Of a stretch of DNA of 43,710 bases, positions 2,243 through 18,946 are shown piece by piece. A program made the translations under genes and the position numbers. The notes below the pieces were generated by a model. The model did not search any database. It was given only the letters and a program-made list of their open reading frames with translations, and had not been told where the DNA came from. Source of the stretch: Candidatus Cloacimonadota bacterium (GTDB lineage: Bacteria; Cloacimonadota; Cloacimonadia; Cloacimonadales; TCS61); assembly GCA_021735645.1 (NCBI GenBank), contig JAIPGP010000022.1, positions 1 through 43,710 on the forward strand, given 5' to 3'. The first letter of the stretch is position 1. Every line of letters begins with the position of its first letter.

Positions 2243-3766
2243 ATGGGTAAGAAAGTGAGAACTGCGATCGAACCAACCCGGGTGGAGAATTATCCCCTAT
2301 GGTATCAGCAGGTAGTGAAATCAGCCGATTTGGCAGAGAATAGTGAAGTGCGCGGATGCATGGTCATCAAGCCCTGGGGTTATACAATCTGGGAAAATAT
2401 CCAAAGGAATCTGGATGCAATGTTCAAGGAAACAGGTCATGTGAATGCCTATTTTCCTTTATTCATCCCGAAATCATATTTTGAGAAAGAAGCTGAGCAC
2501 GTGGAAGGCTTTGCCAAGGAATGTGCAGTTGTCACTCACACCCGTCTGGAAGATGACGGCAAGGGCGGATTGAAGCCGGCAGGTAAACTGACTGAAGAAC
2601 TGGTAGTGCGTCCCACCAGCGAAACAATTATCGGTGCTTCATTCAGTAAATGGGTAAATTCTTATCGTGATCTGCCGCTGCTGATCAATCAATGGGCAAA
2701 TGTGGTACGCTGGGAACTGCGGACACGGATGTTTTTGCGGACAACTGAGTTTTTGTGGCAGGAAGGTCACACCGTGCATGCTACAGAAACGGAAGCCATG
2801 GATGAAACTTATAAGATGCTGGATGTGTATGCCGAATTTGCCGAGACTTATCTGGCATTGCCGGTGCTCAAGGGTCAGAAATCTGAGAGTGAAAAATTCC
2901 CCGGAGCTGTGAGCACTTATTCCATTGAAGCAATGATGCAGGACAGAAAGGCATTACAGGCGGGAACATCACATTTTCTGGGGCAGAATTTTGCTAAAGC
3001 TTCCAACATAAAATTTCAGAATGCCGAAGGTACCGAAGAATATGCCTGGACGACTTCCTGGGGCGTATCCACCCGGTTGATAGGTGCCCTTATCATGGCA
3101 CACAGTGACGATAATGGCTTAGTATTACCTCCCCGCATTGCACCTGCCCATATAGTGATAGTGCCCATAATCCGCCAGGAAGAGCAAAGGGCAGCAGTGA
3201 TGGAATATGTAGAGAAACTGGCTGCCGAATTAAGAGCTATCTGGTATTATGAAAAAAAACTGGTGGTTGAAGTGGATAGCCGCGATATAGCCGGTGGTGA
3301 AAAGGTGTGGCAGTGGATCAAGAAAGGTGTGCCAATCCGATTGGAAATAGGACCCCGGGATATGGAAAACAACTCGGTGTTCATGGGTCGTAGAGACATG
3401 GCACCAAATGAGAAGAAAGGTGTGGATGTGAATGAATTTGTGCAGGAAGCAAAAAAACTCCTGGACGATATCCAGACAAATATCTATCAGAAAGCCTTGC
3501 AGTTCCGCCAGGAACACAGTCATATAATCGATGATAAAGCAGAATTTTACCGGTTCTTTACTCCCAAAAATGAAGAGAATCCCGAAATACATGGCGGTTT
3601 TGTGCGTTCACACTGGTGCAGCAGTGCCGAATGTGAAGAGAAGATAAAAGATGATCTGAAAGTGACCATCCGTAACATACCCTTTGGCGAAGCAGCGGAA
3701 AACGGGCATTGCATTTACTGCGGCAAGGACAGCGAGAAAAGGGTAATTTTTGCGAAGGCGTATTAA
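2243..3766 (+). CDS. proS: Proline--tRNA ligase (archaeal/eukaryotic-like short type)
   Basis: This 507-residue class II aminoacyl-tRNA synthetase charges tRNA-Pro in the cytoplasm. Visible signs are the N-terminal [17 protein letters not shown], the motif 2 region [24 protein letters not shown], split here by position near residues 150-175, the conserved RPTSETII, and a C-terminal Cys-rich zinc-type module with CSSAECEEK and HCIYCGK. The protein ends in Tyr, as is typical of this ProRS class, and it lacks the editing insertion of the long bacterial type. The start follows AGGAG at a normal distance. It stands alone behind the gene-free stretch, and the next gene starts 78 nt downstream across a hairpin. 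No T-box or other leader element was recognised. Confidence 0.95.
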
Positions 3767-3792: not shown

Positions 3793-3811
3793 CCAGACCA
3801 TCCTGGTCTGG
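3793..3811. repeat. Perfect 8-bp hairpin between proS and the S4-PncC gene
   Basis: CCAGACCA (3793-3800) and TGGTCTGG (3804-3811) pair perfectly around TCC. It is flanked by GTCGTGA-type direct repeats (3768-3781 and about 3826-3834). No T run follows, so it is more like a small intergenic repeat than a terminator. Confidence 0.5.
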
Positions 3812-3844
3812 GTTTACAGAAACATGAATCGTGAGGAGACATAA

Positions 3845-4735
3845 ATGAAGTTTTATCTGGATAATACAGAGGATATTTTTCTCTATCAGCTGCTGAAGGC
3901 GGCTGGCTTATTTGAGGAATATGCACATGTGCGGAAAGTGACCAATGAGGGCGAGATAAAGGTTAATGATCAGACCGTATTTAAGCAGCGGACACGCATA
4001 TTTCCCGGAGATGAAGTACGGTATAAGGATATTCACATCAAGGTGATAGCGGGTAAGAGTCCACCTGTCGGAGCGAAGGTGAAACCGGAATTTGTGGATC
4101 ACAGGGAAGGTAATGCTGCTTATCCACGCAGCCGGGATGCTAAACCGGAATTCACTCCTCCTCGTGAAGTGCGGGAAGAGCAGGTGCAGCATGGCAAACC
4201 TCAACGCTGGCAGCAGAAACCACTCCAGAAAGAAAAAAATCTGCGTGATACACTGGAAACCGAAGCAGTGCGATTGCACGCACAATTTATCCGCAATGGT
4301 TTAACACTGAGTATAGCGGAATCCTGCACAGGCGGAATGGCAAGTGAATACATAACCCGCCAGAGCGGGTCATCGGCATATTTTCTGGGTGGAATCATTA
4401 GTTATTCCAATACGGTAAAAACAAGTGTGCTGGGAGTTACAGATAAAATACTGGAAAAAGATGGAGCCGTGAGTGATGCAACAGCATTGGCAATGGGCAA
4501 GGGTGTGATGAATCTTATGGACAGTGATATTGCTGGAGCTATAACCGGTATCGCAGGACCGGAAGGAGCAGAACCTGGTAAGCCGGTAGGCACCGTTCAT
4601 ATCTCTGTGCGAACAAAAGAACTTAATTATACCAGGCGTTATCAAATGCAGGGCAATCGGCAGGAAATACGGATGAAAAGCAGTCTGCAATTATTTAAAA
4701 TGCTGCACCGTCTGATAACCGGGCAGGAAGTATAG
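3845..4735 (+). CDS. S4 RNA-binding domain fused to CinA-type nicotinamide-nucleotide amidase (PncC)
   Basis: Two domains are joined in 296 residues. Residues 1-75 look like an S4 RNA-binding domain: DIFLYQLLKAAGLFEEYAHV, then a GEIKVNDQ turn and FPGDEVRY. A charged linker rich in Pro, Arg and Gln (about 76-135) follows. Residues 136-296 match the CinA C-terminal domain, with SIAESCTGG near residue 156, GGIISYSN, AITGIAGP and KPVGTVHI. That domain deamidates nicotinamide mononucleotide in pyridine-nucleotide recycling. PncC normally stands alone or follows a MoaB-like CinA N-terminal domain, so the S4 partner is unusual. The frame is continuous through both parts. GAGGAG lies just upstream of the start. 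The next gene starts 4 nt after the stop. Confidence 0.85.
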   Translation: MKFYLDNTEDIFLYQLLKAAGLFEEYAHVRKVTNEGEIKVNDQTVFKQRTRIFPGDEVRYKDIHIKVIAGKSPPVGAKVKPEFVDHREGNAAYPRSRDAKPEFTPPREVREEQVQHGKPQRWQQKPLQKEKNLRDTLETEAVRLHAQFIRNGLTLSIAESCTGGMASEYITRQSGSSAYFLGGIISYSNTVKTSVLGVTDKILEKDGAVSDATALAMGKGVMNLMDSDIAGAITGIAGPEGAEPGKPVGTVHISVRTKELNYTRRYQMQGNRQEIRMKSSLQLFKMLHRLITGQEV

Positions 4736-4739
4736 CTTT

Positions 4740-7700
4740 ATGAACAAGAGATCGCTTCTGTTTTTGCTGACAGTATTTATTAGCTGTCAGATGCTGGCGG
4801 AAGTTTTTGAAGTTATAGAAGCCAGTGCAGATGAAGTAACGGTTCGCTTTAATTTACCCGTCTGGGAATTAGCAGAAATTGAGCGGGGTAATGAGACCTG
4901 GCAATACATCAATTGCGAAGGCAGCAGCATTTCAGGAGAAGCCGGCAAGCCGGAACTGCCCTTTTTTACTGGCAGTGTGGGCATTCCCATAGATGGTGAT
5001 ATAGATGTAATCGTGCTGGGGAGCACTCCGCAAACCCGTAATCAGGTACGGATAGTTCCAGCACTTGCTGACTATCTGGATGGTGAAGAACTGGCATATA
5101 AATATGCAATCAATCAAAATATCTATTCACAAACTAATAATTATCCCGGGACAATCGCAACTAAGGGCAATACAGCTATGGCTGGAGACCGGAGATTTTA
5201 TAGTTTCCAAGTATATCCCTTTCAATATCAGCCAGGATTAAATAAATTAAAAATTTATGATGAAATAGTATTGAAGATAAATATACTGGGCAATAAAGAA
5301 AATGTGCGGGGCAATATTGCGGGAAGTATTCTTGATAAAGTAGGCGGCGAATTCTTATTGAATAATCAATACAGCAATAACTGGCGACAGGTAAGAGAAA
5401 CAGACCCAACCCCTCCTCTGCGTAACAGCGGGATTGTAAATTCCTTTATGCTGGTAATCGATGAAGAAGGTATTTATAAAGTTACTTATGAATATATAAC
5501 AGAAGAATTGGCAGATATCGAATACGATGCCGGGTTCAGTTGGGGAAACGTGAATCCGCGTTATCTGGAATTGCGGGATGAATATGGCACGGTTCCCATA
5601 AATTTTGTCGGTGATGCTGATGGCTCTTTTGATCCTGGAGACTATTTTGAGTTTTATGCAGACATCCATCATGGAGAAACCACCTGGTTTGATGATTATA
5701 CCTCTGAAAACATCTTATATTTGAGTCTGGAAGACCATTTCGGCAGCCGTATGATGATAGAGAATGGTGGCTTGGTGGAATCAAATACTGATGACTTCAC
5801 TCTACCTGAATCCTTTGAGCAAACCTTGCATGTTGAAGAACAGAACTTCATTGTACCACTGGGTGCTCAGACACTTTATCAAGGCAATATGAACTATTTT
5901 CGGGAAGATGTGTGGTGGTGGGGAGAGCCAACTGCTCCCGATTTGCAGGTCTTCACTTTTGACCTGCAATATCCGCATGCTTCCAATATCCGTAAAGCTT
6001 CTGCCAGAGTCTGTTTATTTGGCTTAACCTATGATGGGACAAATAACGGAGCAAACCTTTATTCAAATACAGTATTGAATGCCCACCATGCTGTAGTTCG
6101 GATAAATTCCACGTTGATAGATGATATTGGCGGTGATGGAGAATGGATAGGACAGCATGAACAGATATTTGAGAATGTTGCTGGAGAAGGCATTTTGCCT
6201 CCTATATTAAACAATGATTTGAGCCATGGCGAAAATCTGATATCCATCAGTTTACCCAATCTGGAAAATCAGTTGGAAAAGGTGCTGCTGGATTATCTGG
6301 AGCTCACATACTGGCGTGAATATAAGACAGATACGGATTTTATTAAATTCCATAAGCCTTATAAGAAACCAATCGGCACACCGCAGCCATTTGGCTTATT
6401 TCAATTTGATCTGGATGGTTTTAGCAGTGAAGAGGTATCAATCTATAAATTAGGATCAAGTCTGATTGAAAACCTGACGGTTACTTCTTTAAGTGATAGC
6501 GGCAGAGCACCTTTCCGGATCAGTTTTCAGGATAGTGTGTTTTCTAATGAAACAGAGTATTATGCCGTAACAGAATCCATGAAGCGGAGTTTGAAGCGTA
6601 TTGTGCCGGATTATCCCTCGAATCTGAAATCAGTTTCTAATGGTTCGGAATATGTGATAATCACAGTTGAGGAGTTTGAAGAAGCTGCACGTGGATTTGA
6701 AGAATTCTGGGAAGAAGAGGAAGCAGGTCTAAATGTTGAGATAGTAGTATTGCAGGATATTTTTGATGAATTTAATAATGGAATACGGTCAGCAGAATCT
6801 ATAAAAGACTTTCTGGAATACACCTATAATAACTGGTCACCGCGCCCAACCCATTGTCTGTTACTAGGCGAAGGGCTGCTGGATGAGCGGGATAACAGCC
6901 CTTACAGGTGGGCAAATAAGATACCCACCAAGGTGATCTGGCTGCGGGCACGTGGTGCTACTGCGAGTGATAACTGGTTTGGCTGTCTGGCTGGTGATGA
7001 TGCGGTTACAGATATCAGTATTGCCCGTTTAAATGTCACACAGGTAAGTCAAATTCAGACAGTAGTAGATAAGACAGTAAATTTTGTTACCCAGCCAAAT
7101 TATGATGACAACTGGCATAGTTCAATTACTCTGGCAACCGGCGGAAAAGCTTCTGAGGGTAATATATTTTCCATGCAGAGCGAGCGGATACGGAATAACT
7201 CTATCCCTCCCGAATACCGGATCAATCGGGTATATTGCAATGTAACAGGCATGCCGGCGCAATATTCCGGTAATACCACAACCCTGATAAACAGCATAAA
7301 TGATGGGACATTATATGTCCAGTTCATGGGGCATGGCGCCTCTAACCAGTGGGATGATTACGACCTGTTTGATATATATGATGTGGCTAATCTGAATAAT
7401 GATAATTTATTCATTGGCAGCAGCATGAGCTGTTATGGATCAGCATTTTTTGATGGAGCAGGAATATCATGTATCGGTGAAGCTCTCACCTTAGATCATC
7501 AGGGAGCTATTGCCCAGATAGGTTTCACCGGCTTTGGATTCCTGAATCAGGATGAGGTGTATTCTCAAGCTCTGCTGGCAGCAATCACGAACCCTGAACT
7601 GGAAACAATAGGTGAGATCATTGACTATACGAAGACAGTATTTTTTGCTAAAACAGGTACAACCGACGTGGGTAACTCTCTTTTGCAGGGTAGTGCTTTA

Positions 7701-9800
7701 TTAGGTGACCCTTTTGTGAAAATACCCCTGGCAGAAACTGATGCTGAGCTTGAATTAAATAAATTTAATTATGCCAAGGGTGATTCACTGATATTAACTG
7801 CCAGAGTGGGTGCAGATATCGAAAGCGGAAAATTCTATATTTACGATGAACATGATGCTATGGTAAGTGCAAATGAATTTTATCCCTTCACTTATAACGC
7901 CAATAATGGAGAAGTTGTAAGAATTGCCACCATACCGGGCAGTGAGATATTACCCTCAGAGACTTATAACCGCTATGTGAAATTTTCTGGCTTTTCTGAG
8001 GAACGGGAAGTTGTGGGCAATGCGGTATTTTCAATAGGTTTACCGGGAGCTTATAATATAAGCTGGCAGCCTGCTGAGCCAGGACCCGATGATCAGATAG
8101 ATATCATGGCAAATTTTTATGATGATGACGGAGTGGACAGTGTCGCCTGTCACGTGAAAATATACGACAGTGGAGTAAATCCTTTTAATGAAGGGGGAAC
8201 TTCTTCCAGTCATTATTATGAAGAAATGGTCTGGAATTCTGATCTGGGAAAATATCATCTGGCAAATCCCATCATGAACCTGCCTTATGATTATAGTGTC
8301 CGCTTTGATTTTGTGATTACAGATAGTCTGCAAAATGTCAGCTATAGTAACCAGTTGCCTAACCAGAACTTTATCCGGATTCGGGGAGTGAAATTTAAAC
8401 TGACAGATTTCAGTATTGTAGCAGGTGAAAATGAAGCGCTGGCAAGAGTGTCATTGTTTAATAACGGCAATACTGCCAGCGGAGAGTGCAGTTTGAAATT
8501 GTATGTGGCGGGGGGAATGACGCTTTTAGACTCCATTAGAATAGAACCATTAGATGCAGGAGACCAAAGATGGGAGAACCTCTCTATCCCTTTATTAAGT
8601 GGCAGTTACTCTTTTATTATCGTAGTGAATGAAGAAGAAGAATTTTCCGGAACAGCACAATTGAATTCGGGAAATTATGATATTCAGATATTTGAAGCCG
8701 GATTAGATGAACTGGAGATCACTTCCCTGGATGGTAATCTGTTATGCAGTTTTCCGGCAGGATTATTAAGTGAAGCTGCTGTATTTTCTTTAGTGAAAGT
8801 AACCGGACTGGAAGCATTGAACCAGCCTGATATCATTGATATCCAGCTAAGTAATGGAGAATTTTCTTCGGCTTATGAACTTAATTGTCTGAATAAAGAC
8901 GTGATGGCAGACAGCCTGGGTAATTTCCCGGAGCATCGCAGAGTGGAATTGCGCTTTTATTATAATTACAGTGGTGATAAAGTGAGAGAACGTGATGATT
9001 CTCGCTATTCAGTTTACAGGTGGAATGCAGATTATCAGAAATGGGTATTTAAGAAAAAGAAACTCGGTAACGTAGCAGAGCCAGTTAGTTTTCTGAGTGA
9101 TCGCACCGGGATATTCACAATTTTTGATAATCAGGATGAGCTGGCACCATCGATTGATGTTAATGTGGAAGGTCAGGAATTCACTTTTGGCGGTTATGTT
9201 TCACAAAATGGTTTGATTTCTTTTTTACTGGGAGACAATAACGGCATAGATATTATCGAAAATGAAGTGTCATTCTTCATTGATGGAACTGCAGTGGCAG
9301 CCAATGAGTATAGCATTAATGCTGCTACCGGCAGATTGTCCAGTGTGCCTGTGAAATATCAAATGCAATCGATGCCCGAAGGAATTCATTACCTGCAGAT
9401 GTCATGTCGCGATTTTAATGGCAATGAATTTGAGCGGGAATTATCCTTCGAAGTGAAAGCAGATTTTGCCTTGATCAAAGTGGCAAATTATCCTAATCCG
9501 GTGAAATCTATGACTATTGATCCCATTAATACTGGCAGAACCCGGTTTACTTATGTGCTTACTGATGATGCAGATAAAGTCACTATCAGGGTATATACCG
9601 TAAGTGGCAGACTGGTGAAAACCTTTACTAATTTACCTGCCTCTATTGGCTATCATGAATATCCGCACAGTAATATTGGCTGGGACTGCCGTGATGAGCA
9701 GGGTGATTATCTGGCTAATGGGGTATATTTTTATAAAGTGATAGCCTGGAAAGGGTCTGGCAGGATAGAGAAAATCCAGAAGATGGCGATCTTAAAATAG
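4740..9800 (+). CDS. Large gingipain-family (C25) cysteine peptidase, PorU-like type IX sortase candidate
   Basis: The 1686-residue protein starts with a signal peptide ending near SCQMLAE. The N-terminal 180 residues resemble the C25 propeptide (SGEAGKPELPFFTGSVGIP). A PorU-type segment follows near residues 230-310 (EEGIYKVTYE, NPRYLELRDEYG, DGSFDPGDYFEFYAD). The C25 core spans about 640-990; catalytic His is in FMGHGASNQWDDY near residue 864 and catalytic Cys in SSMSCYGSAFFDG near 897. Ig-like regions follow, and the last 100 residues (from NYPNPV near 1583) are a FlgD-like type IX sorting module ending KMAILK. In type IX systems PorU cleaves such signals and joins cargo to a surface polysaccharide. 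The PorV-like gene next door favours PorU over a simple secreted protease, but its length, above the usual 1100-1300, leaves this open. Confidence 0.75.
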   Translation: MNKRSLLFLLTVFISCQMLAEVFEVIEASADEVTVRFNLPVWELAEIERGNETWQYINCEGSSISGEAGKPELPFFTGSVGIPIDGDIDVIVLGSTPQTRNQVRIVPALADYLDGEELAYKYAINQNIYSQTNNYPGTIATKGNTAMAGDRRFYSFQVYPFQYQPGLNKLKIYDEIVLKINILGNKENVRGNIAGSILDKVGGEFLLNNQYSNNWRQVRETDPTPPLRNSGIVNSFMLVIDEEGIYKVTYEYITEELADIEYDAGFSWGNVNPRYLELRDEYGTVPINFVGDADGSFDPGDYFEFYADIHHGETTWFDDYTSENILYLSLEDHFGSRMMIENGGLVESNTDDFTLPESFEQTLHVEEQNFIVPLGAQTLYQGNMNYFREDVWWWGEPTAPDLQVFTFDLQYPHASNIRKASARVCLFGLTYDGTNNGANLYSNTVLNAHHAVVRINSTLIDDIGGDGEWIGQHEQIFENVAGEGILPPILNNDLSHGENLISISLPNLENQLEKVLLDYLELTYWREYKTDTDFIKFHKPYKKPIGTPQPFGLFQFDLDGFSSEEVSIYKLGSSLIENLTVTSLSDSGRAPFRISFQDSVFSNETEYYAVTESMKRSLKRIVPDYPSNLKSVSNGSEYVIITVEEFEEAARGFEEFWEEEEAGLNVEIVVLQDIFDEFNNGIRSAESIKDFLEYTYNNWSPRPTHCLLLGEGLLDERDNSPYRWANKIPTKVIWLRARGATASDNWFGCLAGDDAVTDISIARLNVTQVSQIQTVVDKTVNFVTQPNYDDNWHSSITLATGGKASEGNIFSMQSERIRNNSIPPEYRINRVYCNVTGMPAQYSGNTTTLINSINDGTLYVQFMGHGASNQWDDYDLFDIYDVANLNNDNLFIGSSMSCYGSAFFDGAGISCIGEALTLDHQGAIAQIGFTGFGFLNQDEVYSQALLAAITNPELETIGEIIDYTKTVFFAKTGTTDVGNSLLQGSALLGDPFVKIPLAETDAELELNKFNYAKGDSLILTARVGADIESGKFYIYDEHDAMVSANEFYPFTYNANNGEVVRIATIPGSEILPSETYNRYVKFSGFSEEREVVGNAVFSIGLPGAYNISWQPAEPGPDDQIDIMANFYDDDGVDSVACHVKIYDSGVNPFNEGGTSSSHYYEEMVWNSDLGKYHLANPIMNLPYDYSVRFDFVITDSLQNVSYSNQLPNQNFIRIRGVKFKLTDFSIVAGENEALARVSLFNNGNTASGECSLKLYVAGGMTLLDSIRIEPLDAGDQRWENLSIPLLSGSYSFIIVVNEEEEFSGTAQLNSGNYDIQIFEAGLDELEITSLDGNLLCSFPAGLLSEAAVFSLVKVTGLEALNQPDIIDIQLSNGEFSSAYELNCLNKDVMADSLGNFPEHRRVELRFYYNYSGDKVRERDDSRYSVYRWNADYQKWVFKKKKLGNVAEPVSFLSDRTGIFTIFDNQDELAPSIDVNVEGQEFTFGGYVSQNGLISFLLGDNNGIDIIENEVSFFIDGTAVAANEYSINAATGRLSSVPVKYQMQSMPEGIHYLQMSCRDFNGNEFERELSFEVKADFALIKVANYPNPVKSMTIDPINTGRTRFTYVLTDDADKVTIRVYTVSGRLVKTFTNLPASIGYHEYPHSNIGWDCRDEQGDYLANGVYFYKVIAWKGSGRIEKIQKMAILK

Positions 9801-12261: not shown

Positions 12262-14538
12262 ATGCAAAATAATCAACAAAACCAGAACAACGTAAATCCG
12301 AACATAAGTAGTTTATTTGAAGAATCTGATCTCAAAATAAGTGATTATGTAAATATTCTGCTTCGTTATAAATGGATAATAATCTTTAGCTTCCTGATAG
12401 TGGTGGCTTTCACCAAATATCAGGTCTCGCAGATGCCCCGAATTTATCAATCAACCTCAAAAATACTGCTGGAAGACACTTCAAATGCCAGATTTATCTT
12501 AGGAGCAGAAACCAGCCGCATCAATTCTTCGCTTAATAACAATATTGAGATTCTCAAAAGCCGTCCCGTAATGAGAATAGCTTTAGACATCCTGAAAGAA
12601 GAAGCAGATTATACCACGATGCCGCTCAGCAGGTCATTAGACCCTGTTTCCCGCTTAAAGAGTGGAGTACAGGTGAATTCACGGCGAGATACTGATATCT
12701 TAACTATCAGTTATGAATCTACTTCACCACGTGAATGCCAGGCAGTTGCCAATGCTGCTGCCCAGGCATTGATGGAGCAGAATACCAGCTATGCCAGACT
12801 GGAATTGCGCAATACCAGAGAATTTCTGTCTGAACAACTGGAAGAATCTGAAAGAAGGCTGCGAATATCTGAAGAAGACTTGCGGATATACAAGATAGAA
12901 AATGGCATCTCGGTATTATCATCTGAAATCCAGAACCTCATAGGCAGAGCAGCATCACTGGAAGCAATGCTTAGCGCCAATGAAATTGATCTTCAGGTTA
13001 ATCTGGATCATCTGGAATATCTTAATCAGGAATTATCACATCAGGATACTTTACTGCTGGATATTAATTCCGTATTATCTTCGCCACTGCTGAATAAATT
13101 CCGCTCTGAAATTGTGGATAACCAGACACGTTATGTTTCTCTATTGACAAAACCAGAATATTCCGAGGATCATCCCGAACTGGTTGCGCTGAAAGAGAAA
13201 ATTGATAATGCGAAATATCGGCTCAGTAAGGAAATAGAAAAAATAATCTCTGAAGAAGCAGCCACTCAGGACCCTCTTGCTTTCAGGTCTTCCCTGATCA
13301 GTGACATCTCAAATACAAAAATGGAAAACAATCTCCTGAGAGCTAAAATAGAAAGCCTTAAGCAGGCGGTGAGTTCCTATAATGGCAAACTTTCTGTGCT
13401 CCCGGACACTGAAATCCAGTTAGCACGCCTGGAACGGACTAATTCCATCAATGAAGAAACATATTCCATGCTTGTATCCAAATATGAAGATGCTAAAATA
13501 GCTGAAAGATCAAAAATCGGTAATGTGCGAATACTTGAAAAAGCTCAAATACCAAATTTCCCAATTAAACCGGATGCCAGAAAAAAAATGATGACCTCCG
13601 CCTTGATAGGACTCGCTATTGGCATCGGACTGGCTCTGATGCTTAATTCTCTAGACCCCAAAATCCGGACTTTTGAAGATGTGCGCCGGAATGTGAAACT
13701 GCCCATTGCCGGCACTATTCCCCATATCTATGTACATGATAATGATCTTGATATTATTGATTCTGAAATGTCTGAAGCTACTGATAAGGAAAAACAGGAA
13801 CTGGATAGCCTGCTGCATCAAATTGAAGGTAGATTGATCTCAAATTATGCTCCCAAATCATCCACTTCTGAATCTTTCAGAATACTGCGAACAAATATTG
13901 TCGCTAAAAAAGTTACCGGAAAAGCTCTGTCTTTGATCATTACCAGTTCCGGACCTAAGGAAGGAAAATCCACTATAATTTCAAACCTGGCTATTACTTT
14001 GGGTCAGTTAGGCGATAAAGTAATCTTGATAGATCTCGATTTAAGACGCCCTATGATCCATAATCTCTTTAACTTTGAAAAAGAAAATGGGATAAGTGAC
14101 TTCATCGGAGAAGCACCTCTGGAATATAAAAATTATATTAAACAGGGATTTGCTCATAATCTGGATATTATCACCAGTGGAATCATCCCGCCCAATCCAT
14201 CCGAACTGCTCGCATCAAAAAACATGAATATCCTTTTAGATGAATTACGCCAGAATTATGACTATATTTTGATTGATTCTCCACCGGCTATTGCGGTTAC
14301 TGATTCCATGGTGCTGGCAACAAAAGTGGACTTGATACTGCTGGTAGTGAGAGTAGGCAGAGCAGATAAAGAAGTTATCAGACGAACAAAAGAGATGTTG
14401 CACAATATCAATGTTGATATTGATGCAGCAGTTATCAATGGTATAAAACCACATAGATATTATAGCAGCTATGAATATAATTATTACTACTTATACTATT
14501 ATGGCAGAAAGGGTGATGGAAAAAGCAATAAAGTGTAA
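12262..14538 (+). CDS. Wzc/CpsD-type chain-length determinant and tyrosine autokinase
   Basis: The 758-residue inner-membrane protein has the architecture of a fused Wzz co-polymerase and BY-kinase. A first membrane helix (WIIIFSFLIVVAF, about 37-50) is followed by a Wzz domain with long coiled coils (about 180-420), a second helix (ALIGLAIGIGLALML, about 450-465) and a cytoplasmic ATPase. The Walker A motif is GPKEGKST near residue 565, Walker A' is VILIDLDLRRP, and Walker B is YILIDSPP. The tail holds a Tyr cluster (HRYYSSYEYNYYYLYYYG, about 729-748), the expected autophosphorylation site. Such kinases control the length and export of capsule or exopolysaccharide. No glycosyltransferase or Wzx/Wzy gene is near. 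The end overlaps ispE. Confidence 0.9.
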   Translation: MQNNQQNQNNVNPNISSLFEESDLKISDYVNILLRYKWIIIFSFLIVVAFTKYQVSQMPRIYQSTSKILLEDTSNARFILGAETSRINSSLNNNIEILKSRPVMRIALDILKEEADYTTMPLSRSLDPVSRLKSGVQVNSRRDTDILTISYESTSPRECQAVANAAAQALMEQNTSYARLELRNTREFLSEQLEESERRLRISEEDLRIYKIENGISVLSSEIQNLIGRAASLEAMLSANEIDLQVNLDHLEYLNQELSHQDTLLLDINSVLSSPLLNKFRSEIVDNQTRYVSLLTKPEYSEDHPELVALKEKIDNAKYRLSKEIEKIISEEAATQDPLAFRSSLISDISNTKMENNLLRAKIESLKQAVSSYNGKLSVLPDTEIQLARLERTNSINEETYSMLVSKYEDAKIAERSKIGNVRILEKAQIPNFPIKPDARKKMMTSALIGLAIGIGLALMLNSLDPKIRTFEDVRRNVKLPIAGTIPHIYVHDNDLDIIDSEMSEATDKEKQELDSLLHQIEGRLISNYAPKSSTSESFRILRTNIVAKKVTGKALSLIITSSGPKEGKSTIISNLAITLGQLGDKVILIDLDLRRPMIHNLFNFEKENGISDFIGEAPLEYKNYIKQGFAHNLDIITSGIIPPNPSELLASKNMNILLDELRQNYDYILIDSPPAIAVTDSMVLATKVDLILLVVRVGRADKEVIRRTKEMLHNINVDIDAAVINGIKPHRYYSSYEYNYYYLYYYGRKGDGKSNKV

Positions 14539-15370
14539 ATCTTATGCCAAAATCAACCTGTTTCTGGAAATTCTGCGAAAGAGAAAAGATGAGTACAGTG
14601 AAATTCAGACCATTTTCTCTCTGATAGATGTTTATGACAGATTGAATTTTGTTTTGACAAAAAATAGCCATGTTAAGATTTTGACAGATACAGATTGTCT
14701 GCAAGAAGAAGATAATCTGGTATATAAGGTAGCGGTCTTTATAAAGAAAAAATATAATGTGAAATCAGGTGTTATAGTAGATTTAGAGAAGAATATTCCT
14801 ATTTCTGCAGGGCTGGGAGGGGGAAGCAGCAATGCTGCCTCGACCATTTTGGCATTAAATATTCTCTGGGACTTGCGACTTTCAGAGAATCAGTTGCATG
14901 AAATAGCTGCTCTCTGGGGCAGTGATATAAATTTCTTTCTTAAGGGAGCCACTGCTTTGGGTGAGGCAAGAGGTGAAAAAATCTCTTCTCTTCCTTATCT
15001 GGAATTTGATAATATCTTTCTGGTGAATCCCGGAATTGGTATTGCCAGTTCTGAGGCTTACAAGCTGGCAGAAATCAGTACGGAAAAACAGGATTATCAA
15101 AATTTCCTGATCAGAAAAGACCCAAGGCTTTGTTTTAATCGACTGGAACCCGGTATCAGGAAGAAATATTCCGAAATAGATGATATTATTCGGGACCTGG
15201 AGCTAAAAGGGGCGATAAAAGCAATTCTTTCTGGCAGCGGAGCAACTGTCATAGGATTCTGTCCGAACAAAGCAACAGCTAATAAGTTAAGCCAGTATTA
15301 CACAAACAAAGGATACTGGAATACCATAACAAAAACTAAAGGAGAACCAAATGAACATTACAGATGTTAA
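14516..15370 (+). CDS. ispE: 4-diphosphocytidyl-2-C-methyl-D-erythritol kinase
   Basis: This GHMP kinase phosphorylates CDP-methylerythritol in the non-mevalonate isoprenoid pathway. The 284-residue product shows KSYAKINLFLEI at the N-terminus, the ATP loop ISAGLGGGSSNAAS near residue 95 and the C-terminal ILSGSGATVIG. I chose the ATG at 14516 because it begins just before the conserved N-terminal strand and has GAAAGGG upstream; in-frame ATGs at 14471 and 14501 give longer forms. It overlaps the end of the kinase gene by 23 nt and the spoVG start by 20 nt. Confidence 0.92.
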   Translation: MEKAIKCKSYAKINLFLEILRKRKDEYSEIQTIFSLIDVYDRLNFVLTKNSHVKILTDTDCLQEEDNLVYKVAVFIKKKYNVKSGVIVDLEKNIPISAGLGGGSSNAASTILALNILWDLRLSENQLHEIAALWGSDINFFLKGATALGEARGEKISSLPYLEFDNIFLVNPGIGIASSEAYKLAEISTEKQDYQNFLIRKDPRLCFNRLEPGIRKKYSEIDDIIRDLELKGAIKAILSGSGATVIGFCPNKATANKLSQYYTNKGYWNTITKTKGEPNEHYRC

Positions 15371-15647
15371 GGTTTTTATTCGCGAAAGTAACCAATTAAA
15401 AGCTTTTGTCAACATCGTAATTGATGACGCTTTTATTATCAGGAACATCAAGGTTATCGAAGGAGATAAAGGTCTCTTTGTCGCCATGCCTTCCAGACGC
15501 GTCTCCAGTGGAGAATATCGTGACATTGCTCACCCCATTAATACCGAAACCAGGCAAATGCTGGAAGAACGAATTTTACTGGCATACAAAGAAGAATTGC
15601 AAAAAGCCCTTAGTGTTGTGGAAACCAGCGAGTACCCTGTAGAATAA
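15351..15647 (+). CDS. spoVG: SpoVG-family RNA/DNA-binding regulator
   Basis: The 98-residue product matches SpoVG along its length: MNITDVKVFIRESNQLKAF, then FVAMPSRRVSSGEYRDIAHP, then INTETRQMLEERILLAY. SpoVG is a small nucleic-acid-binding protein with global regulatory effects in Firmicutes and also occurs in non-sporulating bacteria. AAAGGAGA precedes the start, inside ispE. The position between ispE and prs is like that of Firmicutes, where ispE, spoVG and prs lie close together. Confidence 0.92.
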   Translation: MNITDVKVFIRESNQLKAFVNIVIDDAFIIRNIKVIEGDKGLFVAMPSRRVSSGEYRDIAHPINTETRQMLEERILLAYKEELQKALSVVETSEYPVE

Positions 15648-15651
15648 TTCT

Positions 15652-16596
15652 ATGTTTAAAAAACTCAAGCTGTTTACCGGCAGAGCTAATGAGGAACTGG
15701 CTAAGGAAGTATCACGCTATGCTGGCATTCCACTCGGAGAATTAGACCTTTTCAAATTTCACAACGACAATAGTTTTGTGAAGATCAGGGAAAATGTCCG
15801 CGGAGCTAACGTGTTTATCCTGCAGCCAACCTGCCGCCCTGTTAATGATAATCTGATGGAGTTATTAATCATGATTGATGCTTTAAAACGAGCTTCTGCA
15901 GCCCGTATTAATTGCGTGATACCATATTATGGTTATGCCCGTTCAGATAAAAAGGATCAGCCGCGTGTTCCTATCACAGCAAAGTTAGTGGCTGATCTGA
16001 TAACAGTAGCAGGAGCAGATAGAATTGTTACGATGGACTTACACAGTGATCAGATACAGGGATTTTTTGATATTCCTGTAGATCACCTTACTTCTCAATT
16101 GACTTTTGCCCAATATTTCAGAGAGAATATAGACCTCTCTGAAGCAGTGGTAGTGTCTCCTGATGCAGGTGGTGCCCATAGAGCCAGGTCTTTGGCTGAA
16201 CGGCTGAAACTCGGACTTGCTATTGGAGATAAGAGACGATTGGATAACACCGGGTCTGCTGAAATCCTGAATATCATTGGTGATGTGAAAGGAAAAACAG
16301 CGATTATGTTTGATGATATTCTGGATACTGGCGGTAGTTTGACTGACGCTGCCCGGACTTTGAAGAAATTCGGAGCCAGCCGCATTGTAGCTGCCTGTGT
16401 CCATGGAGTTTTATCAAAAGACGCAGTCGATAAGATCAATAATTCCCCGATTGAAAAGCTTTTTATCACAAATTCAATTCCGCTGCCCGAGGAAAAGAAA
16501 AGCGAAAAAATTGTCCAGATATCGATTGCAGAAATGCTGGCAGTAGCCATCAAGAAGATACACGCCGAAGAATCGTTGAGTATCTTGTTCAGATAG
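15652..16596 (+). CDS. prs: Ribose-phosphate pyrophosphokinase
   Basis: The enzyme makes PRPP from ribose 5-phosphate and ATP for nucleotide, His and Trp synthesis. The 314-residue product has the class I PRPP synthase signatures: YYGYARSDKKDQPR (about 105), the DLHSDQIQGFFDIPVDHL metal/substrate region (about 128-145) and the PRPP loop MFDDILDTGGS (about 220-230). The start is 4 nt after the spoVG stop. Confidence 0.95.
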   Translation: MFKKLKLFTGRANEELAKEVSRYAGIPLGELDLFKFHNDNSFVKIRENVRGANVFILQPTCRPVNDNLMELLIMIDALKRASAARINCVIPYYGYARSDKKDQPRVPITAKLVADLITVAGADRIVTMDLHSDQIQGFFDIPVDHLTSQLTFAQYFRENIDLSEAVVVSPDAGGAHRARSLAERLKLGLAIGDKRRLDNTGSAEILNIIGDVKGKTAIMFDDILDTGGSLTDAARTLKKFGASRIVAACVHGVLSKDAVDKINNSPIEKLFITNSIPLPEEKKSEKIVQISIAEMLAVAIKKIHAEESLSILFR

Positions 16597-16617
16597 GGAA
16601 TAACGGAGGAAGATAGG

Positions 16618-17169
16618 ATGAATATTAAAATCGAAGCAAAGAGACGTGAAACGAAGAAAAAATCTGACCTTACTGAGATGAGAAACGCAGAAATCATCCC
16701 GGCAATTATTTACAAGTCCGGTGAGGAAGGATTAAATATCAGCATATCAGAAGCTGATTTTGCCAAAGAATACAGAAAATCTATTGGTGAAATTGCCTAC
16801 TTTTTAATCAATGTTGATGGAAAAGAACATAAAACCATAATCAAAGAAAAACAGGTACACCCTGTAAGCCGCCGTATTCAGCATATTGATTTTCTGGAAT
16901 TAGTGGACGGCAATAAACTAACCCTCAAAATACCCCTTAAATATTCTGGAGAACCAGTAGGATTGAAAGAGGGTGGAAAACTGGAAATACTGGTGCGGGA
17001 AATCAAAATCAAATGCCTGCCAAAAGACATACCTGAAAACGTAAAAATTGACCTGACCCCTTTAGGCGTTGGACAGTCTATTCATTTCAGTAATATAACT
17101 CTGGAAAATGTCTATTCCAAACTGCCCGGAAATACTGTACTGGCTCAGGTTAAGGGTGCCAAAAAGTAA
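16618..17169 (+). CDS. rplY: 50S ribosomal protein bL25, long CTC form
   Basis: The 183-residue product binds 5S rRNA through its N-terminal domain (IKIEAKRRETKKKSDLTEMR, then IPAIIYKSG) and has the C-terminal CTC/TL5 beta domain (LKIPLKYSGEPVGLKEGG, then GQSIHFSNI). This is the long form, not the short E. coli type. GGAGGA precedes the ATG. It lies between prs and pth, the order also seen in Bacillus (prs-ctc-pth). Confidence 0.93.
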   Translation: MNIKIEAKRRETKKKSDLTEMRNAEIIPAIIYKSGEEGLNISISEADFAKEYRKSIGEIAYFLINVDGKEHKTIIKEKQVHPVSRRIQHIDFLELVDGNKLTLKIPLKYSGEPVGLKEGGKLEILVREIKIKCLPKDIPENVKIDLTPLGVGQSIHFSNITLENVYSKLPGNTVLAQVKGAKK

Positions 17170-17188
17170 CAGGTTTGATCGCTAATTG

Positions 17189-17791
17189 ATGAGACTTGTC
17201 GCAGGTTTAGGTAATCCTGGCAGCAGTTACGGATTTACTCGGCACAATGTTGGTTTTATGGTGCTGGATCATCTGGCTAAGCAGAAGGGATTGATATTTA
17301 ATAAAAAAAAATTGTACGAAGCCGTTGCTCAACATGATTTTATCCTGATCAAGCCGCGTACTTTTATGAATAGGAGTGGACAGGCAATCACTTCTGTTCT
17401 ATCCAGTTTTTCTGTGACAGAAATGCTGGTTATATTTGATGATGCCAGTTTGCCTTTTGGCTGCATTCGGTTTCGCCATAATGGCGGTACTGGCGGGCAT
17501 AATGGTCTAAAGTCTATTCAGACTGACCTCGGCAGCACAGATTTTAAAAGATTCCGCTTAGGGATCGGAGCACCTGAACCAGATCAAGACCTGGCAGATT
17601 TTGTCCTTAGTAACTTTAGCTCAGATGAAGCTGCATTTCTACCCGAAATGCTCTCATATGCTGCTAAGTTAATTGATCTTTATCTTCTGGAAGGTTTCGA
17701 ATATCTTCTGGATTATCACAGTAAAAATAAAAAACCCTATTCTGAAAAGCTGGCAGCTTTTCAGGATCATAAGTCCAAAGGAGGAATATAA
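17189..17791 (+). CDS. pth: Peptidyl-tRNA hydrolase
   Basis: The enzyme frees tRNA from prematurely released peptidyl-tRNA. The N-terminal MRLVAGLGNPGSSYGFTRHN holds the conserved Asn and the catalytic His; the catalytic Asp is in VIFDDASLPFG and the substrate-binding Asn in GGTGGHNGLKS. Length is 200 residues, normal for the family. I prefer ATG at 17189 over the TTG directly before it. The final codons contain the AAAGGAGGA ribosome site of rpsF, and the TAA touches the rpsF ATG. Confidence 0.94.
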   Translation: MRLVAGLGNPGSSYGFTRHNVGFMVLDHLAKQKGLIFNKKKLYEAVAQHDFILIKPRTFMNRSGQAITSVLSSFSVTEMLVIFDDASLPFGCIRFRHNGGTGGHNGLKSIQTDLGSTDFKRFRLGIGAPEPDQDLADFVLSNFSSDEAAFLPEMLSYAAKLIDLYLLEGFEYLLDYHSKNKKPYSEKLAAFQDHKSKGGI

Positions 17792-18073
17792 ATGAACTCG
17801 TATGAGAGCATGATCGTAATCTCTGCCAATCTGCAAGATAGTGACGTGGAACAGGTAAACCTGAATATCACTGAATTTATCAAATCAATTGGCGGCGAAA
17901 TGACCGAGACAGATGCCTGGGGAAAGAAAACCCTTGCATATGAAATCATGAAGCAGAAAGAAGGCTATTACTTTATAAACTACTTTAAACTTGCTGCTGA
18001 CAAGATTTTAGAACTCGATCGCCAATACCGTCTCAACGAAAGTATTATCCGTTATAATATTATCAAGAAATAA
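17792..18073 (+). CDS. rpsF: 30S ribosomal protein bS6
   Basis: The 93-residue product shows the bS6 pattern: YESMIVISANL, then DAWGKKTLAYEIMKQKEGYY and YRLNESIIRYNII. It begins the conserved block rpsF-ssb-rpsR-rplI. bS6 binds 16S rRNA with bS18, encoded two genes on. The ATG follows the pth stop directly. Confidence 0.95.
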   Translation: MNSYESMIVISANLQDSDVEQVNLNITEFIKSIGGEMTETDAWGKKTLAYEIMKQKEGYYFINYFKLAADKILELDRQYRLNESIIRYNIIKK

Positions 18074-18087
18074 GACGGAGGTAAATA

Positions 18088-18561
18088 ATGGCTAAAGACC
18101 TTAGATTCCCGAGAATTAATAGCTTAGTACTAAGTGGTAGATTGACTAGAGACGTTGATCTGCGATACACACCTGCTGGTACTCCTATTGCCAAACTTTC
18201 TGTCGCCTTTGACCGCCGTGTCCAGAAAAATGGTAATTGGGAAACTGAAACCAGTTATATTGACGTAATTGCCTGGGAACAGAAAGCCACCCAATGTGCT
18301 GAAAATCTCACAAAAGGCAGTGCTATCATTGTGGAAGGTCGCTTGCAGACCAGAATTTATACCAACAACGAAGGTAAAAACATCAAAATTGCTGAAATTG
18401 TTTCCAACCGGATTCATTTTCTGGAATGGACAGATAAGAAAAATGAATATGGCAGTGACAGTCAGTTTGAAAATATTGATTCTGGCTCAACTTTTCCAAG
18501 TGATGATAATCCAAGTATGGATCATTCAGAAACATCAATCAAAGATGATGTTCCTTTTTAA
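18088..18561 (+). CDS. ssb: Single-stranded DNA-binding protein
   Basis: The 157-residue product has an N-terminal OB fold (LVLSGRLTRDVDLRYTPAGT, then SYIDVIAWEQKATQCAENL and EGRLQTRIY), a disordered Ser/Asp-rich linker, and the acidic partner-binding tip DDVPF. GACGGAGG precedes the ATG. Its place between rpsF and rpsR is widely conserved. Confidence 0.96.
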   Translation: MAKDLRFPRINSLVLSGRLTRDVDLRYTPAGTPIAKLSVAFDRRVQKNGNWETETSYIDVIAWEQKATQCAENLTKGSAIIVEGRLQTRIYTNNEGKNIKIAEIVSNRIHFLEWTDKKNEYGSDSQFENIDSGSTFPSDDNPSMDHSETSIKDDVPF

Positions 18562-18577
18562 ATATCAGGAGATTTAA

Positions 18578-18946
18578 ATGATAGAAAACGAAACCAATAA
18601 CGATACCGTAGTTACTGCTGCAAAATCAGAAGTGCAGGACCCGGATCGTAGAAAAAGACCCGAAGACAGCTCTAACGGTCATTCACCCCGAAAACCTTTC
18701 CGGGGTAATCCCAAAAGATCAGATAAGCGGAAATTCTTTATGAAAAAGAAAGTATGCTTCTTCTGTAAAAATAAAGAAGCTGTTATTGATTATAAAGATG
18801 CTAATATGATGAGACGTTTTATCGCAGAAAGCGGTAAGATCACACCAAGAAGATTTTCCGGAACCTGCGCCAAGCATCAAAGAAAGCTTTCTACTGAAAT
18901 CAAGAAAGCACGGCAGATGGCACTAATCCCTTACACAGATAAATAA
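18578..18946 (+). CDS. rpsR: 30S ribosomal protein bS18 with N-terminal extension and Cys motifs
   Basis: The core (about residues 55-122) is typical bS18: [27 protein letters not shown] and RQMALIPYT. It keeps four potential zinc ligands, CFFC and CAKH, so it is a C+ form. A charged, probably disordered extension of about 50 residues ([26 protein letters not shown]) precedes the core. AGGAG lies before the ATG at 18578. An internal Met in FMKKKVC would give a form of normal size, but no better ribosome site was noted there. Confidence 0.92.

Follow-up and report, generated by a model that had tools for sequence, protein, structure and literature searches.

Here, we report that an S4-type domain and a PncC amidase are encoded in one reading frame in a family of Cloacimonadota, little-known anaerobic bacteria, and that this S4-PncC protein represents a known enzyme family in a new domain architecture, one that is fixed throughout a single bacterial family. 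The gene lies at 3845..4735 on the plus strand of contig JAIPGP010000022.1 (the whole stretch analysed, 43,710 nucleotides, is called the window below). It is a single ORF of 296 amino acids plus stop with an ATG start, and GAGGAG at 3833-3838, 5' of the ATG, is a good ribosome-binding site. The original prediction, made from the letters of the window, had placed an S4 domain at the N-terminus and a complete CinA/PncC amidase at the C-terminus, and both assignments hold. Pfam matched S4_2 (PF13275) significantly over residues 7-67 (3863..4045, plus strand), with an E-value of 1.1e-9 and 38.5 bits against a cut-off of 24.6, and CinA (PF02464) over residues 142-290 (4268..4714, plus strand), with an E-value of 1.6e-48 and 164.7 bits against a cut-off of 23.5; the latter match covers 6-154 of the 155 profile positions, i.e., the whole domain. 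The fusion protein also passes the cut-off of NCBIfam PncC_domain (TIGR00199; 142.1 against 68.9). Pfam, models and structure matches make the S4 part YbcJ-like; please note that this is a resemblance only, as the protein scores 21 bits with the YbcJ equivalog NF008561, whose cut-off is 95. The matches of the S4 part to NCBIfam YbcJ (PRK11507) and YaaA_near_RecF are weak, both under cut-off. Neither a MoCF/COG1058 domain nor a KH-type domain (PF18146) was matched by Pfam in the fusion protein, PF00994 had no match in the whole genome, and no second PncC was found there, the fusion gene being its sole PncC match.

Structure prediction recovered both folds. The AF2 model of the fusion, computed with 36 family sequences, has a mean pLDDT of 84.2, with 86-96 (blocks of ten) in the S4 part, mostly >90 in the PncC part and mostly <50 over residues 80-123. 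Among solved structures, the PncC part matches the T. thermophilus CinA structure and the single-domain PncC of A. tumefaciens (CinA, 2a9s; Z 26.2 over 160 residues, 2.5 Å). With the latter it has the whole catalytic domain and the Ser/Lys dyad residues in common, whereas the N-terminal S4 domain and the tail behind it are additions; N-terminal extensions of single-domain PncC enzymes are described as tails of unknown function (PMC3855486). Bifunctional CinA (T. thermophilus 4ct8) has a homologous PncC, and the cinA gene of sister families holds the same position after proS (prolyl-tRNA synthetase); the fusion protein, however, is without MoCF and KH, and the ADP-ribose pyrophosphatase half is lost. 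The S4 part matches the S4 domains of eS4, TyrRS and RsuA (Z ~9 over 60-70 residues), and a profile of S4 plus tail gave E. coli YbcJ (1p9k, E 5.3e-9) as its top match in the PDB. The S4_2 domain and several basic positions are shared with YbcJ, which is a free protein of ~70 aa, whereas in the fusion the S4 domain is followed by a conserved tail and an enzyme. The pseudouridine synthase RsuA and TyrRS likewise combine an S4 fold with a catalytic domain; those two act on RNA, whereas the substrate of PncC is a free nucleotide.

Distribution and origin of the fused gene

In the phylum sample (124 Cloacimonadota genomes), the fusion protein was matched in 109. Within the window genome's own family (f1, 40 genomes), the S4-PncC frame is intact in 36, the window's genome included, and all 36 complete copies are fused, with no split form among them. 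In one further copy (G069) the contig stops after the S4 part, and three genomes of the family (G071, G074 and G095; completeness 73-82%) gave no match to the fusion protein. The host genome is close to Ca. Stygibacter; the nearest named contig belongs to Ca. Stygibacter frigidus, with 81% identity over the whole protein. The original prediction had considered that relatives might have two separate genes and that the frame here might be an assembly join. Separate genes do exist in relatives (see below), while the join is excluded by the same frame in 36 genomes, and the fusion is a genuine one-frame gene rather than an assembly error.

The search for S4+CinA architectures that had been proposed covered 386 genomes (124 of the phylum and 262 outside), and among the matches listed, S4 and PncC stand in one frame in 36, all of them f1. 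A frequent S4-PncC fusion elsewhere is thereby rejected, none being found outside f1 among these matches, though outside the phylum each family is thinly sampled and the fusion may exist elsewhere. Two candidates were discarded: the outside protein that reaches the S4 part among the matches listed (G329) has KH rather than S4 in front of PncC, and in L075 (G263) the start of the protein is, by eye, not S4-like. A strict peptide-pattern scan of the genome contigs returned 1 locus. Our literature search on the S4-PncC fusion found no paper describing such a protein. A 2013 PncC review (PMC3855486) covers fusions with MoCF and short extensions at the N-terminus and leaves untreated the occasional fusions of CinA to other domains; to go by this remark, the S4-PncC architecture may sit unremarked in databases.

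A ProRS+PncC tree (44 rows, with 30 of the 36 fused f1 rows) recovered f1 as one clade (100/100). Briefly, 44 of 55 PncC rows were used, those with ProRS, so that f7, f9 and f11-f13 are absent; duplicates (L031, L068), fragments (L041, L063) and the f1 rows L006, L011, L013, L014, L015 and L018, close relatives of which stayed in, were omitted.

The sister families suggest how the fusion arose. A separate S4 gene was found in 8 genomes of f3, f5, f6, f7 and f10, and in 6 of the 8 it lies directly 5' of a full-length cinA (MoCF-KH-PncC). The two genes overlap by 4 nt in L032, L033 and L036, by 1 nt in L052 and, counted from the first possible cinA start, by 37 nt in L037; they are 9 nt apart in L038. 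In G050 and G062 the separate S4 gene still adjoins proS, with cinA on another contig. The order in f1 is proS-[S4-PncC]: proS (2243..3766, plus strand, in the window; Pfam ProRS-C_1, tRNA-synt_2b and HGTP_anticodon) lies upstream on the same strand in 36/36 fused loci, with a gene gap of ≤1 nt in 21 of them. Five f2 loci (L054, L055, L061, L062, L067) read proS-cinA-purD-peptidase with a full-length cinA, where we take purD to be such from its sequence, and no S4 gene was found in these five. MoCF (PF00994) was matched in 70 of the 124 phylum genomes but in 2 of the 40 of f1, there in other frames. The KH-type domain of CinA sits between MoCF and PncC (PMC4246079); PF18146 was matched in three CinA proteins of sister families, one of them above the cut-off. 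With S4 before a full cinA in the sisters and neither MoCF nor KH here, these two domains were lost between the S4 gene and PncC. On gene order and domain content, the predicted ancestor has an S4 gene between proS and cinA, with the fusion formed via loss of MoCF (COG1058) and KH. With adjacent, overlapping genes and the later loss of the domains between them, the locus clearly illustrates how domain deletion can fuse genes, and nearly a whole family is left without the COG1058 half of CinA, with PncC retained.

A related state is seen in f4 (3 genomes), in which a short PncC is found without MoCF or S4 (L049 2946-3518; L053 1964-2548; L050 47-592), after proS in both loci reaching that far. 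As PncC occupies this position in f4 with no S4 present, the enzyme does not need S4. Constraining f1 and f4 to a single clade was not rejected (p-AU 0.544), and f4 maybe represents a second state of MoCF loss, shared with f1. Another partial CinA architecture, a 237-aa KH-PncC without MoCF, was noticed at L074 1848-2561 in a genome outside the phylum.

This history raises the question of whether the fusion does anything. It may do no more than hold two coupled genes together, or it could be a frozen accident, i.e., a deletion after which the halves act as unrelated proteins sharing a chain and nothing is gained in function. The MoCF-KH deletion alone suffices to create the fusion, the gene pair was already overlapping, a single state is found family-wide, and S4 may have been dropped in f4, which is also without MoCF and, by the same p-AU value, compatible with a clade with f1. 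All this agrees with an accident; however, none of the 36 intact copies has split again, though an in-frame Met is available in 7 of the 36, and we consider an accident unlikely.

The linker and the H..W..K tail

The two domains are joined by a variable linker (residues 70-112; 4052..4180, plus strand), which is predicted disordered with pLDDT <50 over most of its length, and by a tail motif, H116-G-x4-W122-x2-K125 (4190..4219, plus strand), whose HGx4W part is found in 36/36 fused proteins. A basic Pro/Gln-rich linker had been described in the original prediction, and as a family feature this description fails. Among the 36 family members the length of the first part of the linker varies and so does the charge of the whole linker, the net charge being +4 in the window protein and -6 to +8 across the family, and the constant element is HGxxxxW..K; the variable charge together with the conserved motif rules out a generic basic linker. 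The second part of the linker reads approximately H-G-x4-W-x2-K-P-L in the fused proteins.

The separate S4 proteins end in a matching C-terminal motif with one extra residue between H and W, and have H in 7/8 and W in 8/8 at the corresponding positions. Across 43 sequences (36 fused, 7 separate), H is present in 42, W in 43 and K in 38, and in an alignment of 15 chosen sequences that includes the eighth separate S4 protein, W never varies and H is almost invariant. The motif being common to separate and fused S4, the S4 protein was retained in full, down to its tail. When the S4+tail profile was run against the 386 genomes, the tail was reached in at least 44, all listed Cloacimonadota (36 f1 and 8 separate-S4 genomes), and among the matches listed the best outside Cloacimonadota are confined to the S4 part and lie mostly in short frames. 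We know of no function for the H..W..K tail of S4 proteins, a short motif that is open to testing.

Please note that the distance between W and the catalytic ESCTGG is also constant, 36 residues in all 36 fused proteins. This spacing and that of H-G-x4-W, likewise fixed in 36/36, look as if the tail were placed beside PncC, and S4 could accordingly be imagined as a module that no longer binds RNA and only helps PncC in its structure or assembly, in place of the lost KH/MoCF part. Low S4 net charge in several members fits such a module, as does Thermus CinA, in which the KH-type domain contacts protein and shuts the COG1058 site on the partner chain (PMC4246079). However, S4 with its tail also occurs as a separate protein, in G050 and G062 away from cinA and beside proS, the modelled linker between the domains is disordered, and the basic positions of S4 are mostly retained; a structural role is conceivable, though not probable. 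Docking of the tail on PncC was not seen in the single-chain model, which shows the tail motif as disordered; in a model of S4 plus tail alone, the tail reached a pLDDT of 67-79 against ~55 for the linker, which is too weak to build on. An internal ATG start giving free PncC was also rejected as a conserved feature, since an in-frame ATG between the tail and the active site is present in just 7/36.

Possible roles of the two halves

The deamidase site of the PncC half is intact. Ser160 (4322..4324, plus strand) and Lys192 (4418..4420, plus strand) correspond to the catalytic Ser31 and Lys63 of A. tumefaciens CinA (AtCinA), and S177, Y187, T234 and R276 to its S48, Y58, T105 and R145, in 36/36 fused proteins. 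Altogether 12 positions are invariant in the 36, namely the equivalents of AtCinA E30, S31, C32, T33, G35, S48, Y58 and K63, and likewise T105, G106, P110 and R145. In AtCinA, S31 and K63 serve catalysis, and S48, Y58 and R145 bind the phosphate (PMC5384747). The window's genome has LigA (NAD-dependent DNA ligase), NadE and NadD, so that the route NMN -> NaMN -> NaAD -> NAD is complete on paper. Judged from these residues, the PncC half should deamidate NMN. A role in nucleic-acid repair, via removal of NMN as a DNA ligase inhibitor, has been proposed for COG1058-PncC genes (PMC3680494), and this proposal is a precedent for placing PncC in a nucleic-acid context.

The S4 half might bring the enzyme to RNA because the substrate itself is borne on or released from RNA, i.e., NAD-capped RNA or NMN from decapping. 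NAD caps contain the substrate amide, which is an argument from chemistry only, and the enzyme does bear an RNA-binding fold. The AtCinA residues R145, Y58 and S48, however, bind the phosphate of free NMN, and capped RNA need not fit (PMC5384747); the zinc-ribbon marker of NudC (PF09297) was matched in 1 of the 124 phylum genomes, not the window's, which disfavours a link to NAD-cap decapping, and our literature search found no paper on such a link. An RNA-borne or RNA-released substrate is in our view very improbable.

Purifying selection on the S4 part is strong. Its dN/dS is 0.04-0.07 against 0.07-0.21 for PncC, and it is the lower of the two in 6/6 usable pairs, usable meaning a dS of 0.3-1.0 in both parts (6 of 13 close pairs; six others are saturated or have high dS). 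The pair L018/L019 is reversed (0.246 for S4 against 0.068 for PncC), with an S4 dS of 0.02, about one change. The S4 basic positions K18, R30, R49 and K53 are mostly kept, although the window protein has F at 53, and in the alignment with YbcJ basic residues stand at or near these four. The S4 part is not strongly basic, with a net charge of -2 to +9 across the family and +1 in the window protein. In E. coli, proteins of rRNA processing and RNA decay co-purify with YbcJ, and cells deleted for it synthesise less protein, with lower fidelity (PMC2672614); YbcJ has also been reported associated with 50S (PMC11066096).

The original prediction had suggested an RNA- or ribosome-tethered NMN salvage enzyme or a regulatory role. 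A fusion that is genuine, old and kept, with an intact deamidase site and a constrained S4 part, makes an RNA- or ribosome-associated NMN deamidase a fair reading; RNA binding by S4 and any coupling of the two halves we infer. We therefore favour, with modest confidence, an active NMN deamidase that carries a YbcJ-type S4 module for RNA or ribosome binding, in which S4 and tail were kept and the halves are independent. S4 and its tail would continue to attach to RNA or to ribosomal particles, presumably like the separate protein before them, and PncC would continue to supply NadD and NadE with NaMN made from NMN, e.g., that of the NAD-dependent DNA ligase. With a flexible linker between them, both halves could work independently, so that the enzyme would be carried on RNA or ribosomes with RNA not required as its substrate, each half mainly retaining its old work. 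Several observations speak against this reading: the modest charge of S4, its score under the YbcJ cut-off, the predicted disorder of the tail, the f4 enzyme that does without S4, and the reversed pair L018/L019.

A closer union of the two halves can be pictured, in which PncC acts as a sensor and reports NMN to the RNA-bound S4, making the protein an NMN- or NAD-responsive translation factor. Such a factor would suit a fusion kept across the family, an S4 part more constrained than PncC in the 6/6 usable pairs, a gene close to or overlapping proS, and the effect of YbcJ on translation in E. coli (PMC2672614). Yet every catalytic residue is kept, which a pure sensor does not need, and the long disordered linker of the model offers no obvious coupling path; we regard a sensor as improbable. 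Nor do we give much credence to the broader idea of a link between NAD turnover and translation, with the enzyme mounted on RNA or the ribosome via S4 and tail and either sensing NMN or acting on RNA-attached NAD-derived groups, which seems to us quite doubtful; coupling, sensing or action on RNA-linked NAD is possible but unsupported. The S4-PncC fusion is of moderate interest unless RNA coupling holds. If S4 of the favoured deamidase does bind RNA, a free-nucleotide enzyme would sit on RNA or the translation machinery, unlike the S4 fusions to RNA-modifying enzymes.

Further features of the locus

In the gap between proS and the fusion gene, a perfect palindrome with a 3-nt loop was observed at 3793-3811. 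It is a dispersed element, with 8 exact copies in the genome against 0 of the reversed control pattern; the copies mostly have GTAT or GTAA before them and GTTT, ATT or GATT after them. The same gap is without the palindrome in two congeners.

The usual downstream neighbour is a large secreted peptidase (4740..9800, plus strand, in the window), which we take to be C25/gingipain-like and of which a homologue is found in the same locus and strand in 32/36. Farther along the window, at 14471-18946, we read by eye what are presumably ispE, spoVG, prs, L25/ctc, pth, rpsF, ssb and rpsR, all in one direction, and the gene order from ispE to rpsR is familiar from Firmicutes. Instead of the peptidase, the loci L022 and L044 have, soon after the fusion gene, homologues of part of this gene set (clusters c4 and c6).
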